Part shown: piece after piece, positions 759 through 47,874 of the stretch
How the letters are laid out: each line of letters begins with the position of its first letter
How positions within the stretch are numbered: the first letter of the stretch is position 1
From: Arabidopsis thaliana
Lineage: Eukaryota; Streptophyta; Magnoliopsida; Brassicales; Brassicaceae
Assembly (NCBI RefSeq): GCF_000001735.4
Contig: NC_003070.9
Coordinates: forward strand, 806,001 to 870,000
Direction: 5' to 3'
Length of the DNA: 64,000 nt
The notes under the pieces: generated by a model
What the model was told of the DNA's origin: nothing
Databases searched by the model: none
What the model saw: the letters and a program-made list of their open reading frames with translations, nothing else
Position numbers and translations under genes: made by a program

Positions 759-1969
759 AAAACAAATGGATCAACCATTGATCATAGAATGAAGTGGTCG
801 ATTGTGAATTCTCATGTACACTATAATGATTAATGACTTTTAGTATCTCACCATCTACACCAAAGGTTGATTTATCTGTGAAACAAAAATGGTTTTATGG
901 TTTTGGACAAAAGTCCAATTTACAAGGGTGTTACTGTTAAGTGTTGTTGTTTATAATTCTGTTGGGAAATATTTATGGCGATATTTGACATGTGGTTAAG
1001 TGTATTTTTGAATTAATCTCTCTTTTTGTAATTTTTGTTTCTTTCGTAAATTAGATAAATCTGTTGAGAAATAGATTCACACGCATAACGTTCATTTGCT
1101 TCATCCAGAAAAATATTGGAAAAACTAATTAATTCAGTATTATTTTTGTAAATAAAATAAACAACAAGCCAATCATAATTTAAGGTACTTTCCCAGTTCG
1201 ACAAAATCCAATAAAGAAAATAATATTTGTCCCTTGCCCATTGGTTGTTGCATGGACCTAGCCGAGAAAGCCACGTCAGTGAAAGTCAACAACTTGACCC
1301 AAATACCCTCGGATACGCAACAAAATTACGATACCACCCACAGCACGACTTAGTCCTCAAGTCGTTAACATAAGAGACGGAGCAAAACTTTAGTTACAAA
1401 TCGTTCCTCCTCCTCCTCATCTTCCTCACAGCTCTCGCTTCTGATCTCTTACTTGCACAGAAATCGAAAATTTTCTAAAGCTTTTGTTCTATTCTCTTCG
1501 TTTTCCTCTGGTAATTGAATCGTCGAATTTGAAACTTGATTTTCCCGTGTGTATTTTTTTGATGATTTGTGATCGTTTCTAAAAATTATAGTTTGATCTT
1601 TTCATGATCCGTTGATGATTATGACGGCTAGGTATATCTCTTTTCTCTTTTCTTTTTTTTTTGATTAGGTTTTACAATTCTACAATTTTAGAAAGCTTGA
1701 TTAGGTGATACTGAGTTTGTACTTTTCGGATCATTGCTCTTTTGTCTTCTGCACTTGTATGAGAGTGTGTCTCTCTCATCTATTTTCATATCACGGATTT
1801 TTTCTTCAGGGTTTTTAACATTAGGGTTTTCACAAGAGGCTTGTGATGTGGCTTTACTAGTTTATATGATAAATTATTTCCAGAGAATTTCTTGTATGCT
1901 AGTCTTCTTTGCATCAAAACTAATATTTTGCTTGTTTTTTTTTTCTGCAGAGTTTATTAACTTTCACTG
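759..1969 (+). other. Intergenic stretch, promoter and 5' leader of the CUE/coiled-coil gene
   Basis: No gene is seen between the TFIIE stop and the next start codon. The left part is AT-rich 3' flank. An ACGT-core motif CCACGTCA lies at 1271-1278, followed by TTGACC at 1294-1299 (W-box-like); these are plausible promoter elements of the downstream gene but untested. A leader intron is likely, with donor CTG|GTAATT at 1511 and acceptor TTCTGCAG ending at 1950, leaving a short leader just before the ATG at 1970. Confidence 0.45.
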
Positions 1970-4680
1970 ATGGGTTTCGGTTCTGTTTATCGATCTCTAA
2001 CGGAAATATTTCCTCAGGTAAAAAACTGATCTCTTATTTGATTACTCCAACTTTAGCAGTGAAATTGTGAAAGTATCCACCATGCTTGTGCTCAGAATGC
2101 ATTTTGACACCATTTTTTTTATATATTTTTTGGCTGAATCATCTGTTCTTTTGTGTTTTCTTAAAGAATTTCTGTCTTTTGTAGTCTTATTGAAACCGCA
2201 TTATATACAGTATTATGTTCCATTGCAGATTGATGCACGAATTTTGAGGGCTGTTGCAATAGAACACCCAAAGGATGCTGATGAAGCTGCTGCTGTGGTT
2301 CTTTCAGAGATTATTCCTTCCTTTTCCTCAAATTTGTTCCATAATTTTACTCAATCTTCGTACAAGTCATCTGGAAGCATTTCAGAGCGCGAAGGTACAA
2401 CTTTATAGCCCTTGGAAAATAACCATTTTGTGAGCTGTTTGTTGCTCTGGCTTATACATTCACAGCTTGAGTATTCTTATTTTTCTATTTTCTGAGAGCA
2501 TGTGTTGAGAAAATGCTTGTTTAATATGCAGTAGAACATGGTTTGGAAGATGTTGCTTCTAGGTGCCGCCCTTTTCTTGGAGCTTCTGGCTCAAAGGCCA
2601 GCACTTCTTCTTCTTCTTCTTCTTCAGAAACTCTTCCCCTGGTTGTTACCCGTGACCACAATACCCGTGCTCTAAGTACTGATTTGGTCTCAAACATGAA
2701 CGAGCTAACAACCTTGCAACCAAATGTTGATCCTGATGTTTGCCATAAAGACCTTGAAAGTGAGGAAATTCAATCAGTGAAAAAGGCTCGTGGAAAAGAG
2801 AATGGAAACTATGATTTATTTGGTAGGTGTTTTGATGTTACGAGCAATGCAAAAATTGGTTTGGATGTGCCAGAGGATGATATTGCCTCAGTCGTCTCTC
2901 TCTTTTCCCTAGATAATGTTAAATTGGCTAGCAATTTTTGGGAAGATCTTGGTTTTGATATCACATGGAATCAAGCAGAAAATGCTGTATCGAAGCTGGT
3001 CGATTCAACTCCTGGGGATACTATGACAACTACACAGCAAGGTTCATGTTTTGAAGTTGGCCATGGGAGTACAAATCTTGTGGACGAGACTTCAAATCGT
3101 TCTTTGTTCTCTGAAAATGGTGATACTGAAATAGGTGATGCTTTTAGCACATCAACGCATGTATGCAGCGTTGATCAACTTGAAGATATTATTGAAGATG
3201 CCAAAAGTAATAAGGTATGACACATAATCTTAGCATTCTTTAAGCGTGTGAAAATATTTTGCTTTTGTTTACGTACATTAAGTTGTGTCCACTGGTGCCG
3301 AGGTCCGAAAAGCTGGACCCAATGCTACAACTTCTAGTTACTTATCTGCATTTTAGTAGATTGGAAGGAACCCAATATTCTTGTATTTCTTTTTGTGCAA
3401 TGATATAGAAAAACTTGCTTACTGAGATGGAAACGGTTACAAATATAATGAGAGAAGTTGAACTAAAGGAGAAAGATGCAGAGAAGTCAAAGGAGGAAGC
3501 TGCTAGGGGAGGTTTAGATACTCTTCAAAAGGTTGAGGAGCTCAAGAAGATGCTGGAACATGCGAAGGAAGCAAATGACATGGTAACAAGATTGTTACCT
3601 GTAATGGGCTAATTCATTTTGCTTTAGGTTCTTGATTTTGTAATTAGAACTAATTTACCATGATTTTGCAGCATGCTGGAGAAGTATATGGAGAGAAGTC
3701 AATTTTGGCCACTGAAGTAAAAGAGCTTGAAAACCGGTTGCTCAACTTATCAGAAGAAAGAAACAAATCTCTTGCTATCCTTGATGAGGCATGTTTCTGT
3801 CTGCTGATTATGAAGACTTGTTTTTTTTTTTCCTCCTGTTAAAACGAAACTGAGATGTCTACCTCTGTTTCACACTGTACAGAGATTTGTCTAATTGTGT
3901 TTCTTTGTAGATGCGAGGAAGTCTCGAAATAAGACTAGCAGCAGCACTGGAGTTGAAAAAGACTGCTGAGAAAGAAAAGAAAGACAAAGAAGATTCTGCA
4001 CTTAAGGCACTTGCTGAGCAAGAAGCCAACATGGAGAAAGTGGTCCAAGAATCGAAGCTTCTACAGCAGGAGGCAGAGGAAAATTCCAAGGTACTATCAC
4101 TGTAACAAACACTAGCGATGAGTTTCCTCTAAACTCAAAATTCTTCTCAATCTCATATCTTTTTTTCTTCGTCTTCTCGGCCTGCAGCTTCGAGATTTTC
4201 TTATGGATCGTGGTCAGATTGTTGATACCTTACAGTAAGTCCCATTCTCGTCCCACTAACCGTACATTGGTCCATTTTTTATAACAGCAATGAATCATTT
4301 AGCAAATTTTTTCTGCGGATATTCATAATGATCGGCCATATTAAATGGAATTTTTAACCTCTCTTGGTTCTTTGCGCAGAGGAGAAATTTCTGTGATCTG
4401 TCAAGATGTGAAGCTGTTGAAAGAAAAATTTGAAAACCGAGTGCCTTTAACCAAATCGATCTCCTCAAGCTTCACTAGTTCATGCGGATCATCTATGAAA
4501 AGCTTGGTGCTCGAGAACCCTTCTGAGCGATTGAATGGAGTGACTGAAACCTCAAACAACAACAAGTTCCCAGAAGCAGCAGCTTTCTTCATGAACAAAG
4601 AGAAAGATGATTGTAGAGATCTTCTTGAAGATGGATGGGACATCTTTGACAAGGAGACCGAACAAGTTGTTTGGTACTGA
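1970..4680 (+). CDS. CUE-domain-like, coiled-coil protein (ELKS/Rab6-interacting-like annotation)
   Basis: Eight coding exons: 1970-2017, 2229-2394, 2532-3214, 3409-3582, 3672-3788, 3911-4090, 4188-4234 and 4380-4680, giving 571 aa. The N-terminus (MGFGSVYRSLTEIFPQIDAR followed by an AIEHPKDADEA helix) resembles a CUE ubiquitin-binding fold. A Ser run coded by a CTT repeat near 2600 follows. Exons 4-7 encode a long Lys/Glu coiled coil, and the last exon has a conserved-looking DGWDIFDKE end. I know it as At1g03290, a plant family with a paralogue at At4g02880; its biochemical role is not established and the ELKS label comes only from coiled-coil similarity. Intron 5 (3789-3910) uses a GC donor. 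Confidence 0.8.
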
Positions 4681-13297: not shown

Positions 13298-13711
13298 TTT
13301 TGTTTCCTGCTGATTTCTACCTCTGCTCGCAATTCAACAAAGAAGCTGAAAAAGCTTTGCGGGATTTGAGGACTTTAGAACTTCTCTCTCTCGAGTAAAG
13401 AATGTATGTACCCTAATGATCTTTGGGTTAATTTCGAGAATATAAGAAACCAAAGGTATATTTATGTAATTATTGAAAAGATTGGGTATGTTCTTGGTAA
13501 TTTAAGTAATAAGTGCCTCAAAGGGTAAATATTTAAAAACTCAAAGTGTGTTTTGGTCACCAGCCAAAACTGAATAAAGAAAAGATTTACACAAATCTTA
13601 TAATATCTGACGCATATATAGGCGAGATTGCTGACGATAAGCTTTTTCGTTTTGTTTCCATGGTTTTGTGACGAAGAAGAGAAAAAAAAATAAGAAGTCA
13701 GTTTTTTCTCA
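13298..13711. promoter_or_regulatory. Divergent promoter between LSM2 and the membrane protein gene
   Basis: About 410 nt separate the divergent start codons. The part next to LSM2 is a short leader on the minus strand (CT/GA-rich at 13383-13395). The middle is AT-rich. No strongly diagnostic element is seen. Confidence 0.4.
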
Positions 13712-15227
13712 ATGGCTTCTCATAGCTATTCAACACTTAGGTTTAGTCTCCTTCAAGAGCTAAGAAGCAACGAGATCATCAAGGTCAGTTTTTTACTTTC
13801 TCTGTTTTAAAACACTTGGGTTTAGAATCTCTCGTTGAATTCTTGTCCTGGTTCTGTCTTCTCCTTGTTTGGTTCTTATGTCTATGAATGATTCAGACAA
13901 GCCGGGCTTATCTGGTGAATCCTGGAGGAAGAAAATATGAGATATTACCGGAGAGCTCCTTTAACCTGAAATCACAACTCTTGGAGCCATTGAAACCTTT
14001 TTCTTCTTTTAGTAAGTCTAACCACTTTTTGGAGTTTGATTCAACCATGATGAAGCATAGACTCATGGATGTTCATGGTATGTGACTTTGATCAAATTTC
14101 AGTTGAATTCACCAAATTGTAATCCCTTTTTTCGACTGACATGAACTGTGGTTAACAGAAACTGGACCAGACCCTGTGTGTTTAAGCTTGGGGATCACTC
14201 AGCAGTATGCAAGAAAAGAGGAGGTGTTAGAGTTCCTTTTGTCTAGATCAGAAGAAGAACTCAAAGAAGAAGGATTCGATTTGTCTCTCCTATCTGAATT
14301 GATGGGTCTAGATGCTTTAAGATCAAGTTCTCAGCAACCATATGCAAAGCCGTTATTGGATCTCATGGTGGATGCTAACATTCTGTTCTCAAGTAGCAGA
14401 GCTGAATTGAATGATTTGGTCTCTACGGCAGCTGAGTTTCATAGATTAAGGAACTCAACAAGATGGAGAAAGCTCTCACGGCTTGTCCCGCAGTTTCAGC
14501 GGTAGTTAATTCTTCACTGCAAGTTTGATTCATACCTATGAGTCTCATCCTTTTGGGTTTAACATTAAGTTTTTGCTCTCCTCTCATTCTGCAGATTCGA
14601 CAGTGAAGTACCAATAGACACTCTGCAGCTACCCGAGGACGCAGTTACACTAGCTCCTCCAAAGAGGTATCTAATATCATCAACTAGTTTTTGGTACTTT
14701 TGCATCTTTAAAAAACGTTTCTTTCGATTTCCAACAGTCCGAAGAAAACCAGGCTCAAGCCTTCACCAAAGAAACAAAATCCGAAGATAAGAGATAAGGA
14801 ATATGACCTCTACGAACGAAACCGTCTTCATGCGTGTGAGAGCCTTCTCTCTCTGATGATAGGCAATGAACAACATAGAAAAACCACAATGCTATCTCTA
14901 AAGAAATCACGTGGAGAACTCTTCGAGCTTTTGACTCAGTGTTCAATTGGCTTTGCTGGCACTGGTATGGCTGTGCTCTTCTTTCTCGTTTGTAATGTTG
15001 CTTCCAGGCAGGTACCCTTTTGCGCAAACCAATTCTTCGAGGGTGCAATGAGTTTGAGTTTGGTATTGCTCTCGTGGTCTGTGAGTAGACTCAGGGAAGC
15101 CCTTGTTAATTTCAATAGGAAAACAATCAACGAAGAAGAAGTCTCAAATAAAGTGGAAAGAAGAATCAAAGAAGTTTACTTCAGAGCTGCCACAGTTATT
15201 GCCATGGTTGCACTTAGGTTTGGTTGA
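13712..15227 (+). CDS. Uncharacterised plant membrane protein
   Basis: Five exons: 13712-13783, 13897-14077, 14159-14501, 14595-14666 and 14738-15227, giving 385 aa (At1g03340 by position). No domain is recognised. The N-terminus starts MASHSYSTLRFSLLQELRSN; the middle is helical and acidic/basic. Near the C-terminus there are two hydrophobic stretches, about residues 293-311 (IGFAGTGMAVLFFLVCNVA) and 324-339 (GAMSLSLVLLSWSV), suggesting a membrane hairpin, followed by a charged helix. I recall a paralogue at At4g02920, which matters for the EF-Tu relic just downstream. The last exon contains a CAG|GTACCC at 15009 that could act as a donor, but the frame runs straight through it. Confidence 0.82.
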
Positions 15228-15485
15228 ATGTTGGAATGCTGATGATTTGGAGTCTAGTTTCTAACTCCATTCTTTGGCTTGCTTAAAGGTTAATTTGTCA
15301 ATGTTAGGTTGTAGAATAAAGTGAAGATATCACACTGGGAGAAGCTTTTCTTTTAAAACACTAATCTCTCGTTTATTTGATATAAACTCTCAAAGTAGTA
15401 GAAATCTCATGAGAGATGAATCTTTAGATACTAGAGAACAGTTGTGTTTTTTCGTTTGAAGAACTTTTAAATCTGCTATAGCGAC

Positions 15486-15560
15486 TTAGCTCATCACTTT
15501 TGATACCACACCGGCTCCAACTGTTCTACCTCCTTCCCTTAGAGCAAATCTTTGACCCGT
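15486..15560 (-). pseudogene. Relic of a mitochondrial-type EF-Tu gene (C-terminus only)
   Basis: On the minus strand, 15560-15486 reads 24 codons plus a stop: TGQRFAL followed by [17 protein letters not shown]. This is the highly conserved C-terminal strand of bacterial and mitochondrial elongation factor Tu. Upstream of 15560 the homology stops at once and in-frame stops follow, so no functional EF-Tu gene exists here. I recall that mitochondrial EF-Tu is At4g02930, next to At4g02920, the paralogue of the gene immediately left of this relic. That makes it a likely leftover from an ancient segmental duplication rather than a recent organelle insertion. The motif is seen; the origin is inferred. 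Confidence 0.75.
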
Positions 15561-16833
15561 TAAAATCGCAAAATAGAAACAACTTGGATTACTCAAGAAA
15601 CAACTTGCTTTCTCGCCTTGAAATGGTGATTGGGGTTTAAGTGAGGGTTAATTACTCACGCGAGGGTTTCTCTTGGATCCATCCAGATCCTTTTCTATCC
15701 TTTTCTGTGTTCTTCTTACCAGTAAATTCTCAAAGGACGTCGATTGTGGTTTTACACTAATAGTTTCACATCGATTCGTTGCATTATTAAAATCCAATCA
15801 TAAAATTTCTATTTATACATGCACACATACGGTACATGTTCAATTGAAACATTTTCCCTAACTAGACATGCCAATAAATAATAAGTTGGTTTGGTCCAAA
15901 AAATAAAATAATAAGTAAAATTCTACAAAACAAATGGTACAGTTTTGTTAATAACTAGATATTCATCCGGGTACACAACGTATTTATATTTTTGTTAACA
16001 AGTTAAAGATTTTATTTTAGTTAATAGTATTTATAAATGATAAACATATTAAGAAGTACACAACGAGCCTATATTTTTCTCAAAAATTTTTATTTTTTTG
16101 TTTTAAAGATGATTTATAGATATATGCTATTGCTTTTTTTTATGTATGATACATCTCGAAATGATTTATATAACTAAATTTCTGAAATTTTAAGTTATTT
16201 TTTGTATTAATATTGTAAATTTTGTTTAATTTTAGAATTTTACCATAGTATATCATTCCGTATTAATATTGATCCAAACCGTCTCACCATATATCCTAGT
16301 TCTGTGAAATTAAACATCATTTTGTCATTTTCTTATAAAGTTCAAATCTATATAATATTTGAAACTTCAAAAAAGTTTTAAATATATTGTATTATATCGT
16401 CCCGTATTAATATATTTTTAAATATATATATTATATAAAACTTCATAAGAGTTTTAAAATTATAAATATTAAAACGTTTTAAGAAGTTTTAATTTTAAAA
16501 GTTTTACAATTTGTAATATTTAACTTTTTTGGTTCTTCACAAAGGACAGAAATTGAGATTAATTTTGACACAATTAAAGCTCCGAATTCGCAGGGGTCAG
16601 TTGATTGATATACTCAAAATAACTGGAGAGAATGACTATCGCAAGATGAATATATTCAAACTTTCCTCAAACCACCTTCTCAAGTAAAATTTAAAAACAT
16701 ATTTTCAAATCAATGTAAAATAGAAACGTTGAAGAGAAAAACAACTGAAGAATGGGGGCAAAGCGCCAGAAACTTGTAAAAACAAGTAAAAGGATTGGCA
16801 AAAGTAAGAAAGCACACCACTTTAAAACTAACA
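15561..16833. other. AT-rich gene-free stretch, possibly decayed transposon sequence
   Basis: No gene is seen. From about 15940 to 16510 the sequence is very AT-rich with internal repetition: GTACACAACG recurs near 15970 and 16057, and GTATTAATAT recurs near 16205, 16260 and 16403. The text around 15950 (AACTAGATATTCATCCGGGTAC) resembles degenerate non-coding Helitron-type DNA common in Arabidopsis, but I cannot find clear termini. The right end, from about 16560, is 3' flank of the BSD gene. Confidence 0.35.
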
Positions 16834-21181: not shown

Positions 21182-24100
21182 ATGAGTATAGTTCAAAAGC
21201 AAGAAGAGATGAATGGATGTGGTCTCAATGTTGACAAAGTAGAAGCCTTTACAGTGTCACCTCAGGAAAAAGGAAGGAAAAACAAGAGAAAGTTAGCTGA
21301 TCCTTCTCAACCAAATGCTTCTTCCCTCACTGAATTCCCTCCATATGAGTTACCTTCGTTGAAACCTCAGAACCATTTGAGCGGAAATGGATCGGTTGGG
21401 GAAGTTTCTAATCAGCTGCAAGTTGAAGTGTCTGAATCTGTCGAATGGGATGACCCATTTGCCTGTCATCTTGAAGAATTGTTGTCGTCAAATTTGCTCA
21501 CGCTCTTCCTTGATACAATGAAGCAGCTTATTGATTTAGGCTACACCGATGACGAAGTTCTGAAAGCTGTATCACGCTGTAGGCTGTACTGTGGAGGCAA
21601 TAATCTTTTGTCAAACATTGTCAATAACACCTTGAGTGCTCTCAAGACTGGAGACGAAGGTGCTGGTTCAGGAGACTATGTGTTTGAGGATTTACAACAG
21701 CTTGTTTCCTATACGTTGGTAGAAATGATAAGTCTTATTAAGGAGGTCAGGCCGTCCCTATCAACAGTTGAAGCTATGTGGAGGCTTTTGATGTGCGACT
21801 TGAATGTCTTGCAAGCCTTTGAAGCTGAAGGCGATGGATTGGTGAGTTCAAGTAAATTATCTGATTCGGAATCTCTTGGTGCTGAATCTAATCCTCCAAA
21901 ATCTAGTGACCCAGATAACCCAAAGCCTCCCCAATCCGATCCTCAAAGCAATCGGAATGAGCCACTCAAATTTGGAAACTTCCCAAATACACCGAACTCC
22001 AAAAAAACTCAGTCTAGTGGAACAACACCAGGAAAAGAAGTATGCTCGGGTAGCACTGTTTCTTGTCAAGGCATGAGAAGTACATCATTTACTCTAGTCT
22101 CTGATGAAAAATTGGTATCTTGTCGAAAAGGCCGTACTAAAAAAGAGATAGCAATGCTTCGGCAAAAATCATGTGTGGAAAAAATTAGGACTTACAGCAA
22201 AGGCAGTGGCTATAAGGCGGCAAAGTTTGCATCAGTTGGCAGCTTCCTTTTAGAGAAAAGAGTCAAATCATCTTCTGAATTTGTGCCAAGAAATTCTTCA
22301 TCAAAGATAACAGCAGAGATTGGAGTGAAAGTTTCATTAGCTGAGGATAGCGGCTGTTTTGTAAGAAAGAACAGTAAGTTGGATTCACCTGTGGTAGTGG
22401 TAGATGCAAAGGGCTATATAACTGCCTTACCTGCTAGGTCGGTAAAATCTGCTTCAAAAAAAAAGACTGGTTCTGAGTCTGTAACTCTGATACCATCAGC
22501 TTCAGAAAAGAAGTCTGATTCTTCGATACCATCAACTTCAGAAAAGAAGTCTGGTTCTGAGTCTGAAGAGAAGGCATCTGTGTCTGCAAAGCTAGCACCA
22601 GATTACTATGCTGGGATCCCATATGATGCAGCTCTGGGTATATATGTTCCCCGGGATAAGAAAGATGAATTGATTCTAAAGCTTGTTCCTCGAGTGAATG
22701 ATCTGCAGAATGAACTGCAGGTCTGGACTGACTGGGCTAATCAGAAAGTAAAAGAGGCAACTGGTAGACTACTTAAGGACCAACCAGAGCTTAAGGCACT
22801 AAGGAAAGAGAGGGAAGAGGCAGAACAGTATAAAAAAGAGAAGCAGTTATTGGAAGAAAACACTAGGAAAAGGCTATCTGAGATGGATTTTGCGTTGAAA
22901 AATGCGACCAGCCAGTTGGAAAAAGCATTCAATACTGCTCACAGGCTCGAGCTGGAACAATCTATACTGAAGAAAGAGATGGAAGCTGCTAAGATAAAAG
23001 CCGTCGAGTCTGCTGAGAGCTTTAGAGAAGCAAAAGAGAGAGGGGAAAGATCACTGAAGGATATTCACTCGTGGGAAGGGCAAAAAATTATGTTGCAGGA
23101 AGAGCTCAAGGGTCAAAGGGAAAAGGTGACAGTGCTACAGAAAGAAGTTACCAAAGCAAAAAATCGCCAGAATCAAATCGAGGTTAGCCACTTTTGTAGA
23201 CATACGTTAGGTCTTCTTGTCTTATGACGATTATCGATAGGTACCCGCAATTCACCATATGTCTCATCTGCTAACGTCCCTTCCTTTCATATTCGTATCT
23301 CTGGTAACGATTTTATTCTTTTGGATACATATATATCACCTTGTACATTGCTATATCTAAGGAATGCGATAAAGTAAAGGAAGAAAAAATGTCAGTATCA
23401 GGTGTTTTTAGTCTACTGCATCCTTCTGCTTTAAAGTAGCTCTAGAAATGAAGTGTAGTAATATCAAGAGTGTTGTTGATTGCAATTGATGTTTTTTATC
23501 TATCTAGGTTTGGTCGATGTTGTATCAGGTGTTTTTAGTCTACTGCATCCTTCTGCTTTAAAGTAGCTCTAGAACTGAAGTGTAGTAATATCAAGAGTGT
23601 TGTTAATTGCAATTGATGTTTTTTGTATCTATCTAGGTTTGGTCGATGTTGTAAGTTTGAGAAAGGGTTGTTTTTAGTTATAGGAGTTGATGAAGACATC
23701 TAACGAAAATTCCTCTGCAGGCTGCTTTGAAGCAAGAAAGAACAGCCAAAGGGAAACTCAGTGCTCAGGCTTCATTGATAAGGAAAGAAACAAAGGAACT
23801 TGAAGCGCTTGGAAAAGTGGAAGAAGAGCGGATCAAAGGGAAAGCAGAAACCGACGTGAAATATTACATAGATAACATCAAGAGACTTGAAAGAGAGATC
23901 TCAGAGCTGAAACTTAAATCAGACTACTCGAGAATCATTGCACTGAAGAAAGGCAGCAGTGAGTCAAAGGCAACAAAAAGAGAGAGTCTTGGGATGCCGA
24001 AAGTGAAAAGAGAAAGAGAATGTGTGATGTGTTTATCTGAAGAGATGAGTGTGATTTTCTTGCCTTGTGCTCACCAAGTTCTTTGCTTTAAATGCAATCA

Positions 24101-24191
24101 GCTTCACGAGAAAGAAGGAATGATGGATTGTCCGTCTTGTCGTGGAACAATCCATAGGAGGATTCAAGCTCGTTTCGCTCGCTCCGGGTGA
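21182..24191 (+). CDS. RF4: RING-finger protein RF4 (putative E3 ubiquitin ligase)
   Basis: Two coding exons, 21182-23182 and 23721-24191, giving 823 aa (At1g03365). The N-terminal region carries a conserved plant block (VEWDDPFACHLEELLSSNL, then DLGYTDDEVLKAVSRCRLYC). The middle is Ser/Lys rich with short repeats (SEKKS). A long coiled coil spans about residues 490-760. The C-terminal RING is C3HC4-like: CVMCLSEEMSVIFLPCAHQV, then CFKC and CPSC. Related proteins (RF298, MIND1BOMBO-like) are thought to be E3 ligases; activity is inferred from the RING. Exon 1 is phase 0 and ends QIE|. The intron contains a tandem duplication. Confidence 0.92.
23395..23650 (+). repeat. Tandem duplication (127/129 bp) inside the RF4 intron
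   Basis: Unit 1 spans 23395-23521 and unit 2 spans 23522-23650. They differ at only a few places (GAAATGAAG/GAACTGAAG, GTTGATTGC/GTTAATTGC and a 2-nt insertion near the end). The near identity indicates a recent duplication. It lies wholly in the intron and leaves the splice sites alone. Confidence 0.93.
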
Positions 24192-24967
24192 AAGCTTTCT
24201 TAACAGTTTAAACTTGTAGAAACAACAGTCTCTCTTCTATCTATGAAGAACACAACAACTTTTGGTTAATAATCCCATCTTGGCTTTTTGAATGATTTTA
24301 ACTACCAAGCCAATTAGACTACACGTGGCTACCTTATGGTACTTATTTTCATTTTTGCCCTTCTAATTTTCTTTATTAATTAATGTATTCATATCACCAT
24401 AAACTGCAAAAAAAAAGTTAATTTTGGTGAATAAATCGACGCCAAGATAGAAATATCTTGGTCACAATCAAAGATTCAATAATGTGGGGCGTAAAGCAAA
24501 GATTTATAAACTATGAAGGGTGTCAATGCAATGTTTTAAAAAAATACAGATAGAACTACACTTATGAAAGTTCCGCGTATGAAAAGTCAAAAAAGACATT
24601 AACGTTGACCAAACAAAAAAAAGAAAGAAGAGGAAGACATTAACGAAGACTTCGTCGCCGACGACTTTCTGGATTTATCGTTGTTGTTGTTAATGTTTAC
24701 CTCTTCCGATTTGAAGCAAATTAGGGTTTATTTCCATCCAAAATCTCCTTTTCTCATGCTCAATGATCAATTTCCCCCCATTTCAAAGTTATCTCTCTCA
24801 TCTCCAATTTTGAATTTTCTCCCGATTTGTCTGGCTTTCTCCATTGCTGATTTTTCAAAGTTTTCTTCTCCATTCGTCGTATTTCTGGGACCGTTCTTCC
24901 CTATACTCGCCATCGTCAATTCGACTTTGTGAGTCTCCCTCTGCGGGAGTTCATCAGCGTCGGCGAG
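24192..24967 (+). other. RF4 3' flank and leader of the C2-GRAM gene
   Basis: AT-rich 3' flank to about 24600, then a CT-rich leader. An upstream reading frame starts at ATG 24693 (or a later in-frame ATG at 24756) and closes with TGA at 24932, 35 nt before the main ATG. It encodes a hydrophobic, low-information peptide and may only reflect CT-rich leader composition. Confidence 0.45.
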
Positions 24968-43235: not shown

Positions 43236-46200
43236 ACCGATGCGTTTCTCGATTATGCAAATGTTCAAGGCTGATGACACAAATGAAACCGAAACTCCTC
43301 TGTAGTTTTGTTGTTGTTGTTATGTTTTATATTGATTAATGAGGTTCAGCAACACTGTCCCTGGCCAGATATCGTGTCTTGTTTAGACTCTTAATTGAGT
43401 TCTAAGAGTAAAAATTGAATTATTAGTCTATAAATAGACATGTCCATATGTATTCCTGTCACAATGCAACCACCATTTGGAGCCTTTGTTCTGACCATCA
43501 TGACTTAGAATTCTCAGCATTATTCTGAATCTGATATACTCTATTGGATTCATGATTTTGATTTGAGCCGTAAAGCATGCGGGTACTAGTTAGCACTTTA
43601 GACGATTTCATTATGTGTGGATTAATCAAGAATGATTTGTTTGAATTATGGATAACACGATTCCATGGTCTCTTTATTTTGTTAACGGTATTCCATGGTC
43701 TCTTTTATCAACATTATTGTTATAGGGCTTATAAGACATGATTGTGACAATAGATTGAGAAAGGATTGGGCATGTCTTGTTAGGTATGTATTTAATATAA
43801 TGTCCGAATTACCTCAAACTAGGAATGAAATAAAAAGAAAATGTCGAAGAATTATCAATAGATTGTTTATAAGTGGAATAAAAAATGTGAAGCCATGTGT
43901 CTATGGTAATCACTAGGTGGAGCATTTTTTTTTTTTTAAAGGAAGAGTATGTGAAGTGAAAGAGACTAATGAAACATAAATTGAAGGCATGGAGGCGTGT
44001 AATGTAACAAATAATAACAAAGCTTTTCTCCTCTATCCTTCATTTTATCATATCCATCTTCATCATTTTTATTTCTCTCAACCAATGTTTTTAAAATAAT
44101 TTTGTAATATCCTTATAACATGGTTGGTTTTAGGGTTCTTCATGAAACCGATTCAAAAGTCAAAGCAAATCTTATATCGGTTACTATGTGATCTTACCTT
44201 CTATGGAGAGAGGATTCGACGACACACCAAACAAACACAAGAGTCCCAAAACGAGTGCGTTAATTGTCTCGTAGTGCGGACCATCTTAGGGTTTAGACCT
44301 TTTTAATTTTGTTCATTATGATTGGAACGTATTGCTTTGGCTTTCTTGCAAAGCCAAGTTTTCTTTTCATAAATCTAATTTGGTCTACTCATCACTACCT
44401 AGTCTCTCTTAGAATGAATACTAAATCATTTTTATTATGCATGGTTGGTATATGTGAATCAGTAGCGAATCATTATTTGAAACGTATTTAGATGTACGCT
44501 ATGAGTTAATTATTTTCAGAAAACGGTAGTTACACTTATGAAACTAATTAATGCACATCAAAAGTAGAGACAATCTGCTAATATACGTACACAAGGCAAA
44601 AGATTGTACAGTAGAGGTATATATCGAGCTATTTTGTTGCTTGCGTATGTAGTGAAACAAATGTTAAAATTGGGTAAGCGTTATAAATGTTGACCTGACC
44701 ATCTTATGCATGTGTTGTTGCTAAAACTTGTGGTCCAAGCTCCTATTCCTTTTTTTAACATACAAACAACAAGTTTTGTGAAAAACCAAATGAGTAAAAA
44801 CTAGAGAAATATAACATGTCACTGTTTTTACCATATTTACTCTTTTTTTTTCCTTTTGCTTTTAAACTTAAAGTCAATCTCTTATGCGTTGTCCAACTTT
44901 TTTACCAATTATCTTTCTTTACGCCCACGGAATTGAAGGACCATTTGCCAGCTACCTTTGTAAAATTTAGACAGTTGGAACAACCTTACAAATCTTTTTT
45001 TTTCTCTTTCACCTATCTAACTGTCATAGCTAGCTTTTACATCTTTCTCATATTCATTTTATTCATTCGTAAAATATTAAAACTTTCTTTCATATATAAA
45101 TATAGATTAATACAGTTATATATTTTTTGGTCAATGAAGTAAGTTAGTAATTAGTATAATGGCTAAATGTAAACGAGTGAAAACAATTGACAAAAACATT
45201 TGTTGATTTATGCAAGAGTCGGTATACGAAACATTTCTTCGATAGATGTGTTAATCTATAACTTCATCAAAGAAGCCCTATGGCGAATCAAACATTTAGT
45301 ACTAACTAGGGACTATAACATTTAACTAATCAAAAGTAGTTGTGAAATAAACTTTTGGTCGCAAGATTTGTTGGAAGTGGATATAGTACAGTAAAGCTTA
45401 GTTAGATATAGACTAGGACACACTTCAAAGTTGATATTGACTAAAACTTTCATCAGTTACATTGACCATTACTTAACCATCTATCATAAGCTAAACTTCC
45501 TACGATATGCGTTATGATTTGTGTTAAATATCAGGAAAATTCTTTATTTTATTTTTTCATCAACTTCAATCAGGAAAATGAAATTGTAACGCTGATTTTG
45601 TGTTTTAAAATCGAGCAAAATATATCTGGAAAAAATAATAAAGTACAATTATAAAACAAAGGTAGTAGCTAGTACAATAGAGTAATTATCGAACCAGAAA
45701 GCTGACGTGTCACGGAAATCTCGCTCGTCCAAGCTGTCACTCAAAACAGTAAAACTGAAACGCACACAAAACTCACGTGACGAGAAGACACACTTTTTAT
45801 CGTCTCTCTCACCGAACCTAATCTGTTTCTTTACGAACCTAAGGCTCGGACAGCCGTTTTACCATATTACCTGTTCCCCATAAAAACCACAGCTAAAAGA
45901 AAAGAAGGCACCTTTTTTCATGTTTTTACTGACACAATCCAAATGTATAACCTTTCTTAATTTAGCATTCTAATTAGTGTTTTTGTCCGACACATTAAAT
46001 TTTCATATCATCGTCTTCCACCACAAGCCACCAAAAGAAACAAACAAAAAGAGCGGAACAAAGAGGAAAATGAAAGTATAGAGAATTTACCAAGTATCTT
46101 TGTATGTATGTTAAACTGTATATTAGATTAACTTACCATGTAGATTGTAGAGAATATGTATTCTTCTTATTAATTATGATGTGAGTACAAAGAGAAAGAT

Positions 46201-46680
46201 AATCTAGAGTTTAGATTACAAACTTGATTGAGAAGTAACTTAACATATATACTTATCTTCGTATATTCTTCTCTGTACAAAGACTGACACTATTAGACAA
46301 AATAAAATATAAAAAAAGGAAACAAAAAATAGAGGAAGAAGAAAGAAGAAACAGACGACGACGTTGATTCATTTCTTGGGTTTTTGGCTTCCTTCTCAAG
46401 CCATTTTGTTTACTCTCTTTCTCTTCTCTCGATAAACCTTTCTTTTCTTCCTTTTGCTAATCGTTTATTGATAATCCTCCATTAAAGCTCTCACGGAAGC
46501 TCCCACGAGAACACCTTCTTTCCACCACATAAACCAGAGACTTTCCCTCTCACGAGAAATCAGAAAACAAAACCCATTTTCTCTACTTTACAGCTCGTCT
46601 CTGTTCTTCCCTCTGTGTATATATATAGTCTCTGTTTCTTGAACCTGTAACGGCTAAGTCTGAAGAAGAAGAAGAAGAAG
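43236..46680. other. Long AT-rich intergenic region between AHP5 and the LRR gene
   Basis: 3.4 kb without a recognisable gene. Open frames (for example 44816-45142) are AT-driven and domain-free. ATTCCATGGTCTCTTT occurs twice near 43660 and 43690. The right end (46330-46680) looks like a CT/GA-rich leader for the LRR gene, ending in a GAA repeat (46663-46680) that runs directly into the ATGATGATG start. No tRNA or transposon with clear ends is seen. Confidence 0.45.
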
Positions 46681-47874
46681 ATGATGATGAGATTTACCAA
46701 GTTGGTTTGGTGTTTGATGTTCCTGCTTCGATTCGGCTTCTTCACGGAGGCGATTCTCGACCCAGTTGATTTCTTGGCTCTGCAAGCTATTCGTAAATCC
46801 CTCGATGACTTGCCAGGTTCCAAGTTCTTCGAGTCTTGGGATTTCACTTCTGATCCATGCGGCTTCGCTGGCGTCTACTGCAACGGAGATAAAGTAATCT
46901 CTCTCAATCTCGGCGATCCTAGAGCCGGTTCACCCGGTTTATCGGGTCGGATCGACCCAGCAATAGGCAAACTCTCTGCACTCACTGAGCTCTCCATTGT
47001 CCCCGGCAGAATCATGGGTGCGTTACCGGCAACAATCTCTCAGCTAAAAGACCTTCGTTTTCTCGCAATCAGCCGGAATTTCATCTCCGGCGAGATTCCG
47101 GCGAGTCTCGGCGAGGTTCGTGGTCTCAGAACACTGGATTTAAGCTATAATCAATTAACCGGAACTATCTCTCCGTCAATCGGATCGTTACCGGAGCTCT
47201 CCAATTTGATTCTCTGCCACAACCACTTAACCGGATCAATACCACCGTTTCTCTCACAAACTCTAACCCGAATCGATCTCAAACGCAACAGCCTCACCGG
47301 CTCAATCTCACCGGCGTCTCTCCCTCCGTCGCTTCAATACCTCTCACTCGCTTGGAACCAGTTAACCGGATCGGTATACCATGTTTTACTCCGGTTGAAC
47401 CAGCTTAACTACCTTGATCTCAGCTTAAACCGGTTCACCGGTACAATCCCCGCTCGAGTCTTCGCCTTCCCGATCACAAATCTTCAGTTACAACGCAATT
47501 TCTTCTTCGGTTTAATTCAGCCGGCGAATCAAGTGACGATCTCCACCGTCGATCTCAGCTACAATCGATTCTCCGGTGGGATATCTCCGCTTCTCTCAAG
47601 CGTTGAGAATCTCTACTTAAACAGCAATCGTTTCACCGGTGAAGTCCCGGCGAGTTTCGTGGAGAGGTTGTTATCGGCGAACATACAGACTCTGTATCTA
47701 CAGCATAATTTCTTGACGGGAATACAGATTAGCCCGGCGGCGGAAATCCCGGTGAGCAGCTCGCTGTGTCTGCAGTATAACTGTATGGTGCCGCCGTTAC
47801 AAACCCCGTGTCCGCTAAAGGCCGGCCCACAAAAGACTAGGCCCACTACACAATGCACCGAGTGGCGAGGGTAG
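46681..47874 (+). CDS. Secreted leucine-rich-repeat protein
   Basis: Intronless 397-aa frame (At1g03440 by position). A signal peptide is likely at residues 1-24 (MMMRFTKLVWCLMFLLRFGF, then FTEA). An LRRNT-like cap follows (DFLALQAIRKSLDDLPGSKF, with the Cys pair SDPCGFAGVYC). About ten extracellular plant-type LRRs follow (LRTLDLSYNQLTGTISPSIG and similar), closed by a Cys-containing C-cap. There is no transmembrane segment or kinase, so it is expected to be apoplastic, perhaps a scaffold or ligand-binding LRR like PGIP/DRT100-type proteins; its role is unknown. Three ATGs in a row make the exact start uncertain by up to two residues. Confidence 0.92.
   Translation: MMMRFTKLVWCLMFLLRFGFFTEAILDPVDFLALQAIRKSLDDLPGSKFFESWDFTSDPCGFAGVYCNGDKVISLNLGDPRAGSPGLSGRIDPAIGKLSALTELSIVPGRIMGALPATISQLKDLRFLAISRNFISGEIPASLGEVRGLRTLDLSYNQLTGTISPSIGSLPELSNLILCHNHLTGSIPPFLSQTLTRIDLKRNSLTGSISPASLPPSLQYLSLAWNQLTGSVYHVLLRLNQLNYLDLSLNRFTGTIPARVFAFPITNLQLQRNFFFGLIQPANQVTISTVDLSYNRFSGGISPLLSSVENLYLNSNRFTGEVPASFVERLLSANIQTLYLQHNFLTGIQISPAAEIPVSSSLCLQYNCMVPPLQTPCPLKAGPQKTRPTTQCTEWRG

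Follow-up and report, generated by a model that had tools for sequence, protein, structure and literature searches.

Gene loss by deletion after tetraploidy has been described in maize, in a paper whose relevant passages bring in the Arabidopsis alpha event by way of background (Woodhouse et al. 2010, PMC2893956). In grasses, relics of long-established genes that were lost have been reported at the places where the genes once stood, and 44 of these relics are stated, in the passages concerned, to be transcribed (Zhao et al. 2015, PMC4425925). Such relics are familiar, and the one described here is an ordinary fractionation relic, one of many to be expected. It lies in a window of 64,000 nucleotides, C1:806001-870000 (the whole stretch of DNA analysed, to which positions without a prefix refer), and its counterpart lies on C4; we take C1 and C4 to be Arabidopsis thaliana chromosomes 1 and 4.

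We put at roughly 93% the probability that this sequence is what degeneration has left of the chromosome-1 homeologue of the nuclear gene for mitochondrial EF-Tu, a copy created by a whole-genome duplication. The initial annotation had proposed such a fractionated copy, and synteny, a DNA match at two places in the genome and a homologous 3' flank all support that reading. The relic stands in collinear position and orientation and keeps a near-intact last exon; its acceptor is destroyed, and the other exons are absent from the window. Its parts are as follows.

15486-15556, minus strand: what remains of the last coding exon in an EF-Tu gene of mitochondrial type, consisting by comparison with the C4 exon of GT, 22 codons and a TAA stop.
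15557-15561, minus strand: region of the former splice acceptor, in which the AG of the C4 gene is GG.
15275-15439, minus strand: diverged, gapped remnant of the sequence that followed the stop on the 3' UTR side, with homology to C4:1295534-1295722.
15621-15699, minus strand: possible remnant of the 5' UTR or proximal promoter; it aligns with C4:1298386-1298454, which closely precedes the ATG of the intact gene, and is suggestive only.

Translation of the minus strand from 15486-15560 gives 24 residues, then a stop. The peptide matches the Pfam profile GTP_EFTU_D3 with 30.6 bits, above the cut-off of 27 bits (E 4.5e-7, profile positions 85-105 of 106), and aligns with the C-termini of bacterial EF-Tu in the PDB (best E 7.5e-7 among the 60 of 65 sequences listed). 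When the genome itself was searched at the DNA level with a 201-base query (119,662,809 bases in 7 contigs, E up to 10), the two places listed were the relic and C4:1295751-1295826, which match at 92% identity over 76 bases (15486-15561, E 9.3e-24). Together these results bear out the annotation of an EF-Tu C-terminus with its stop codon. The 25 readable codons claimed for it shrink to 22 full codons and the stop, with the exon starting at 15556 by comparison with the intact gene; the leading T of the earlier translation and the first base of its G codon are intron side or split codon, lying across the destroyed acceptor.

The C4 match forms the end of a complete, intron-rich EF-Tu gene that extends from C4:1295751 to about C4:1298354, which we take to be At4g02930, the gene for mitochondrial EF-Tu. 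Among the 38 matches listed in a search with the 454-residue protein (E up to 1), this was the one multi-exon gene of mitochondrial EF-Tu type, and the relic was the sole match in the window, which held no other EF-Tu coding sequence. Outside the C4 gene, the matches among those 38 that resemble it over the plastid-type gene and other translation GTPases are the relic (88%) and C4:1294849-1294944 (69%).

The latter is a second EF-Tu fragment (L015:4849-4944, L015 being the C4 locus), situated between the C4 partner of the left neighbour and the intact gene. It comprises one internal exon with an acceptor AG, shows 85% DNA identity over 91 bases, with a Ks of 0.36 and a Ka of 0.15 over 28 codons, and resembles what a tandem copy would leave behind. 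Within the intact gene, at L015:5822-5917, the last intron closes with CTGGAAACAG, almost a repeat of CTCGAAACAG, with which the exon before it closes; read-through would therefore give a second LETG before the last exon.

In the relic, the bases preceding the exon read ATTTTAACGG, compared with CTGGAAACAG in the intact C4 gene. The open stretch, 53 codons long, has no in-frame ATG until its penultimate codon, and because the acceptor AG is also lost, translation as EF-Tu is not expected. The disabled splicing and coding that mark a pseudogene are present, in the change from AG to GG and in the absence of the upstream exons from the window. The initial annotation had noted nothing EF-Tu-like upstream, which holds for coding sequence in the protein search but perhaps not for non-coding sequence, since a weak 5' UTR remnant may survive at 15621-15699.

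Homologous non-coding flanks, expected of a duplication relic, were found on the 3' side, were not detectable in the intron and were suggestive only for the 5' UTR. The 3' flank alignment, which was tested after the likeness had been noticed by eye, scored 24; among 740 real genomic windows, taken from both strands, no score exceeded 22, and in two tests with 300 shuffles each 24 was never reached. The real windows, taken from 13 of 14 loci (all but L015) and from the window minus about 14.8-17.0 kb, are the better control, the shuffle being an approximate dinucleotide-preserving swap. For the intron, the score of the last C4 intron against 15562-15635 was equalled by 1270 of 4652 control windows, and an intron remnant was dropped on that ground. 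The match at 15621-15699 includes an exact run of 13 bases and was equalled by 1 of 2614 windows in a narrow test with bounds set post hoc; in wide tests it fell short of significance (51 of 614 windows in one and 147 of 968 in another; 35 and 24 of 300 shuffles). We retain it as suggestive of a 5' UTR or proximal promoter because, across the roughly 3 kb of C4 that precede the last exon, the best same-strand match lies shortly 5' of the start codon.

Comparing 94 kb around the window with 110 kb of C4 by BLAST revealed collinearity of the window with C4:1.275-1.331 Mb: the relic and four gene pairs that were retained follow one another in identical order and orientation.

1932-4661: retained pair, with C4:1275090-1277906, same orientation.
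13704-15228, plus strand: retained left neighbour (presumably At1g03340-like), with C4:1292826-1294671, in pieces of 70-75% DNA identity; Ks 0.77, Ka 0.26. The synteny BLAST paired 13864-15228 with C4:1293190-1294671, a match that the word-7 search below extended slightly.
15486-15561: the relic, with C4:1295751-1295826, same orientation.
21188-24195: retained pair, with C4:1324602-1327352, same orientation.
45834-47873: retained pair, with C4:1329458-1331138, same orientation.

The left neighbour, whose C4 partner is presumably At4g02920, stands tail to tail with EF-Tu on both chromosomes, with the relic on C1 and the intact gene on C4. The initial annotation had named this succession of neighbour and EF-Tu on C4 and had made its reading depend on synteny between the two segments; both are confirmed, the four pairs and the relic lying in register. 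Divergence over 1839 codon pairs of the four gene pairs amounts to a Ks of 0.72 and a Ka of 0.19 (Nei-Gojobori), computed from tblastx segments whose frames were unchecked against gene models, so that Ks is perhaps somewhat inflated. The individual values of 0.63, 0.64, 0.77 and 0.89 agree with one duplication age in 4 of 4 retained pairs. We take a block Ks of about 0.72 to lie within the range of the Arabidopsis alpha duplication, with which the block is in keeping. One tblastx listing, in which E values of 0.0 on many short matches reflect linked-segment statistics, was disregarded save for the line of the relic.

A hunt for relics of other lost genes (blastn with a word size of 7 and E of at most 0.05, comparing 94 kb on C1 with 110 kb on C4) detected none that was collinear: the matches were the four pairs, the EF-Tu exon and four hits to a repeat at about 16.06-16.37 kb. 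One isolated weak match (34 bases, E 0.005) lies on the opposite strand about 19.0 kb left of the window, off the collinear line. The repeat is dispersed and A+T-rich, and occupies 15949-16529, between the relic and the next gene. Searching with 15600-16640 gave at least 151 matches from the 40 of 191 candidates scored, and those listed, self-matches aside, fall at about 15949-16529; the two matches of the synteny BLAST besides the pairs and the relic were both to this repeat.

The exon itself has changed little. Across the 22 codons there are five differences from the C4 exon, four synonymous (over 17.0 sites) and one nonsynonymous (over 49.0 sites), the latter at the last residue, which is Ser in the relic and Thr in the C4 gene. 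Ks is 0.28, compared with 0.72 for the block, and the synonymous count is marginally under the block rate (P 0.049). On a branch of 0.36 that had been neutral since the duplication, 28% of nonsynonymous sites would be expected to differ, and the probability of at most one difference would be about 1.5e-6; for a branch of 0.30 it would be 1.5e-5. If the branch had been neutral for 0.27, 0.30 or 0.50 of the elapsed time, the probability would be 0.055, 0.036 or 0.002, respectively. These values suggest that the chromosome-1 copy probably kept its function through at least about 70% of the time since duplication, an estimate drawn from one exon, 22 codons of a highly conserved motif that was noticed because it is conserved. 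On balance we favour the view that a second mitochondrial EF-Tu gene functioned for at least about 70% of that time and was lost recently, perhaps within the genus Arabidopsis, and that some relatives may keep two. With the duplication dated to 23-50 million years ago in the relevant passage of Woodhouse et al. (PMC2893956), arithmetic would place the loss of constraint, coarsely, in roughly the last 7-15 million years at most.

The observations would fit a history in which both EF-Tu copies remained functional through most of the time since duplication, after which the chromosome-1 copy may have lost its gene body, with all upstream exons, through a single deletion or several. About 2.5 kb, from the last exon to the 5' UTR, would have been removed if the 5' UTR match is genuine. 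The chromosome-1 relic would now make no EF-Tu, and mitochondrial EF-Tu would be supplied by the chromosome-4 copy alone.

Gene conversion, instead of selection, could also have preserved the likeness between a duplication relic and the C4 exon. The restriction of high identity to a short tract and a Ks of 0.28 in a block of 0.72 would be explained in this way, but the edges of the tract coincide with the coding exon: high identity is bounded by the stop codon and by 5 bases past the exon start, as coding constraint predicts, and the proportion of synonymous differences, four of five in 22 codons, is likewise the pattern of coding constraint. Because identity ends at the edges of the coding exon, we favour selection and regard gene conversion as unlikely.

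Less probable again is a recent copy of the C4 fragment that landed beside the left neighbour by chance, whether by transposon capture, as a retrocopy or as filler of a double-strand break. The identity of 92% does exceed the 67-85% seen in pieces of the retained pairs (one 27-base piece reaches 96%), and the dispersed repeat begins about 390 bases upstream of the relic. However, the relic occupies precisely the position that synteny predicts, is correctly oriented and has its 3' flank homologous in register, and its identity breaks off at the stop codon and close to the edge of the exon, both of which random capture would ignore. A retrocopy would moreover have brought the preceding exon, which is absent upstream of the relic; a processed pseudogene, with the upstream exon joined without an intron, was rejected on the same observation.

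We consider it just as improbable as a recent copy that the exon retains a function, for example as the final exon in some unrecognised transcript or as an RNA element that is under selection and runs antisense to the left neighbour's end. The near lack of nonsynonymous change would be expected if it did, but the acceptor is lost, no in-frame ATG precedes the penultimate codon and no further EF-Tu coding sequence lies in the window. An insertion of bacterial or organellar DNA, with a best match elsewhere, was the outcome that the initial annotation had set against its own reading, and despite the match of the peptide to bacterial EF-Tu it can be dismissed: the sole other DNA match listed among the 7 contigs is the C4 EF-Tu gene, at 92%, no organelle contig or plastid-type EF-Tu gene is listed as matching the relic DNA, and the nuclear C4 match and synteny weigh decisively against it.

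Read as a fractionated homeologue, the relic documents within one genome that this duplicated block has lost a gene, and suggests a loss that came late and not at once. When a duplicate of a single-copy gene for organelle translation disappears late, this has a bearing on the question why genes of this class go back to one copy; if true, the timing and cause of a late return could be tested in a core mitochondrial translation factor. Among the best-ranked titles and abstract openings searched, a scope that leaves most subscription papers and genome annotations outside, we found no account of the relic and no paper on At1g03340 or At4g02920; a prior description is possible.

To the known picture this analysis adds that the 3' flank is homologous, that the acceptor is lost and that the gene was probably lost late. 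With the intact gene at C4:1295751-1298354, presumably At4g02930, the relic shares the last exon, the stop codon and a diverged 3' flank, but it lacks the other exons and the splice acceptor. The locus resembles fractionation by deletion, as set out in the relevant passages of Woodhouse et al. (PMC2893956), in that one homeologue was deleted and its collinear neighbours were left; here a gene fragment remains as well, a single exon whose coding sequence is far better preserved than its flanks. With the unitary gene-loss relics of grasses, as they appear in the passages concerned (Zhao et al. 2015, PMC4425925), it shares an identifiable remainder of a dead gene at the ancestral place, whereas here a duplicate of the lost EF-Tu gene survives on C4.
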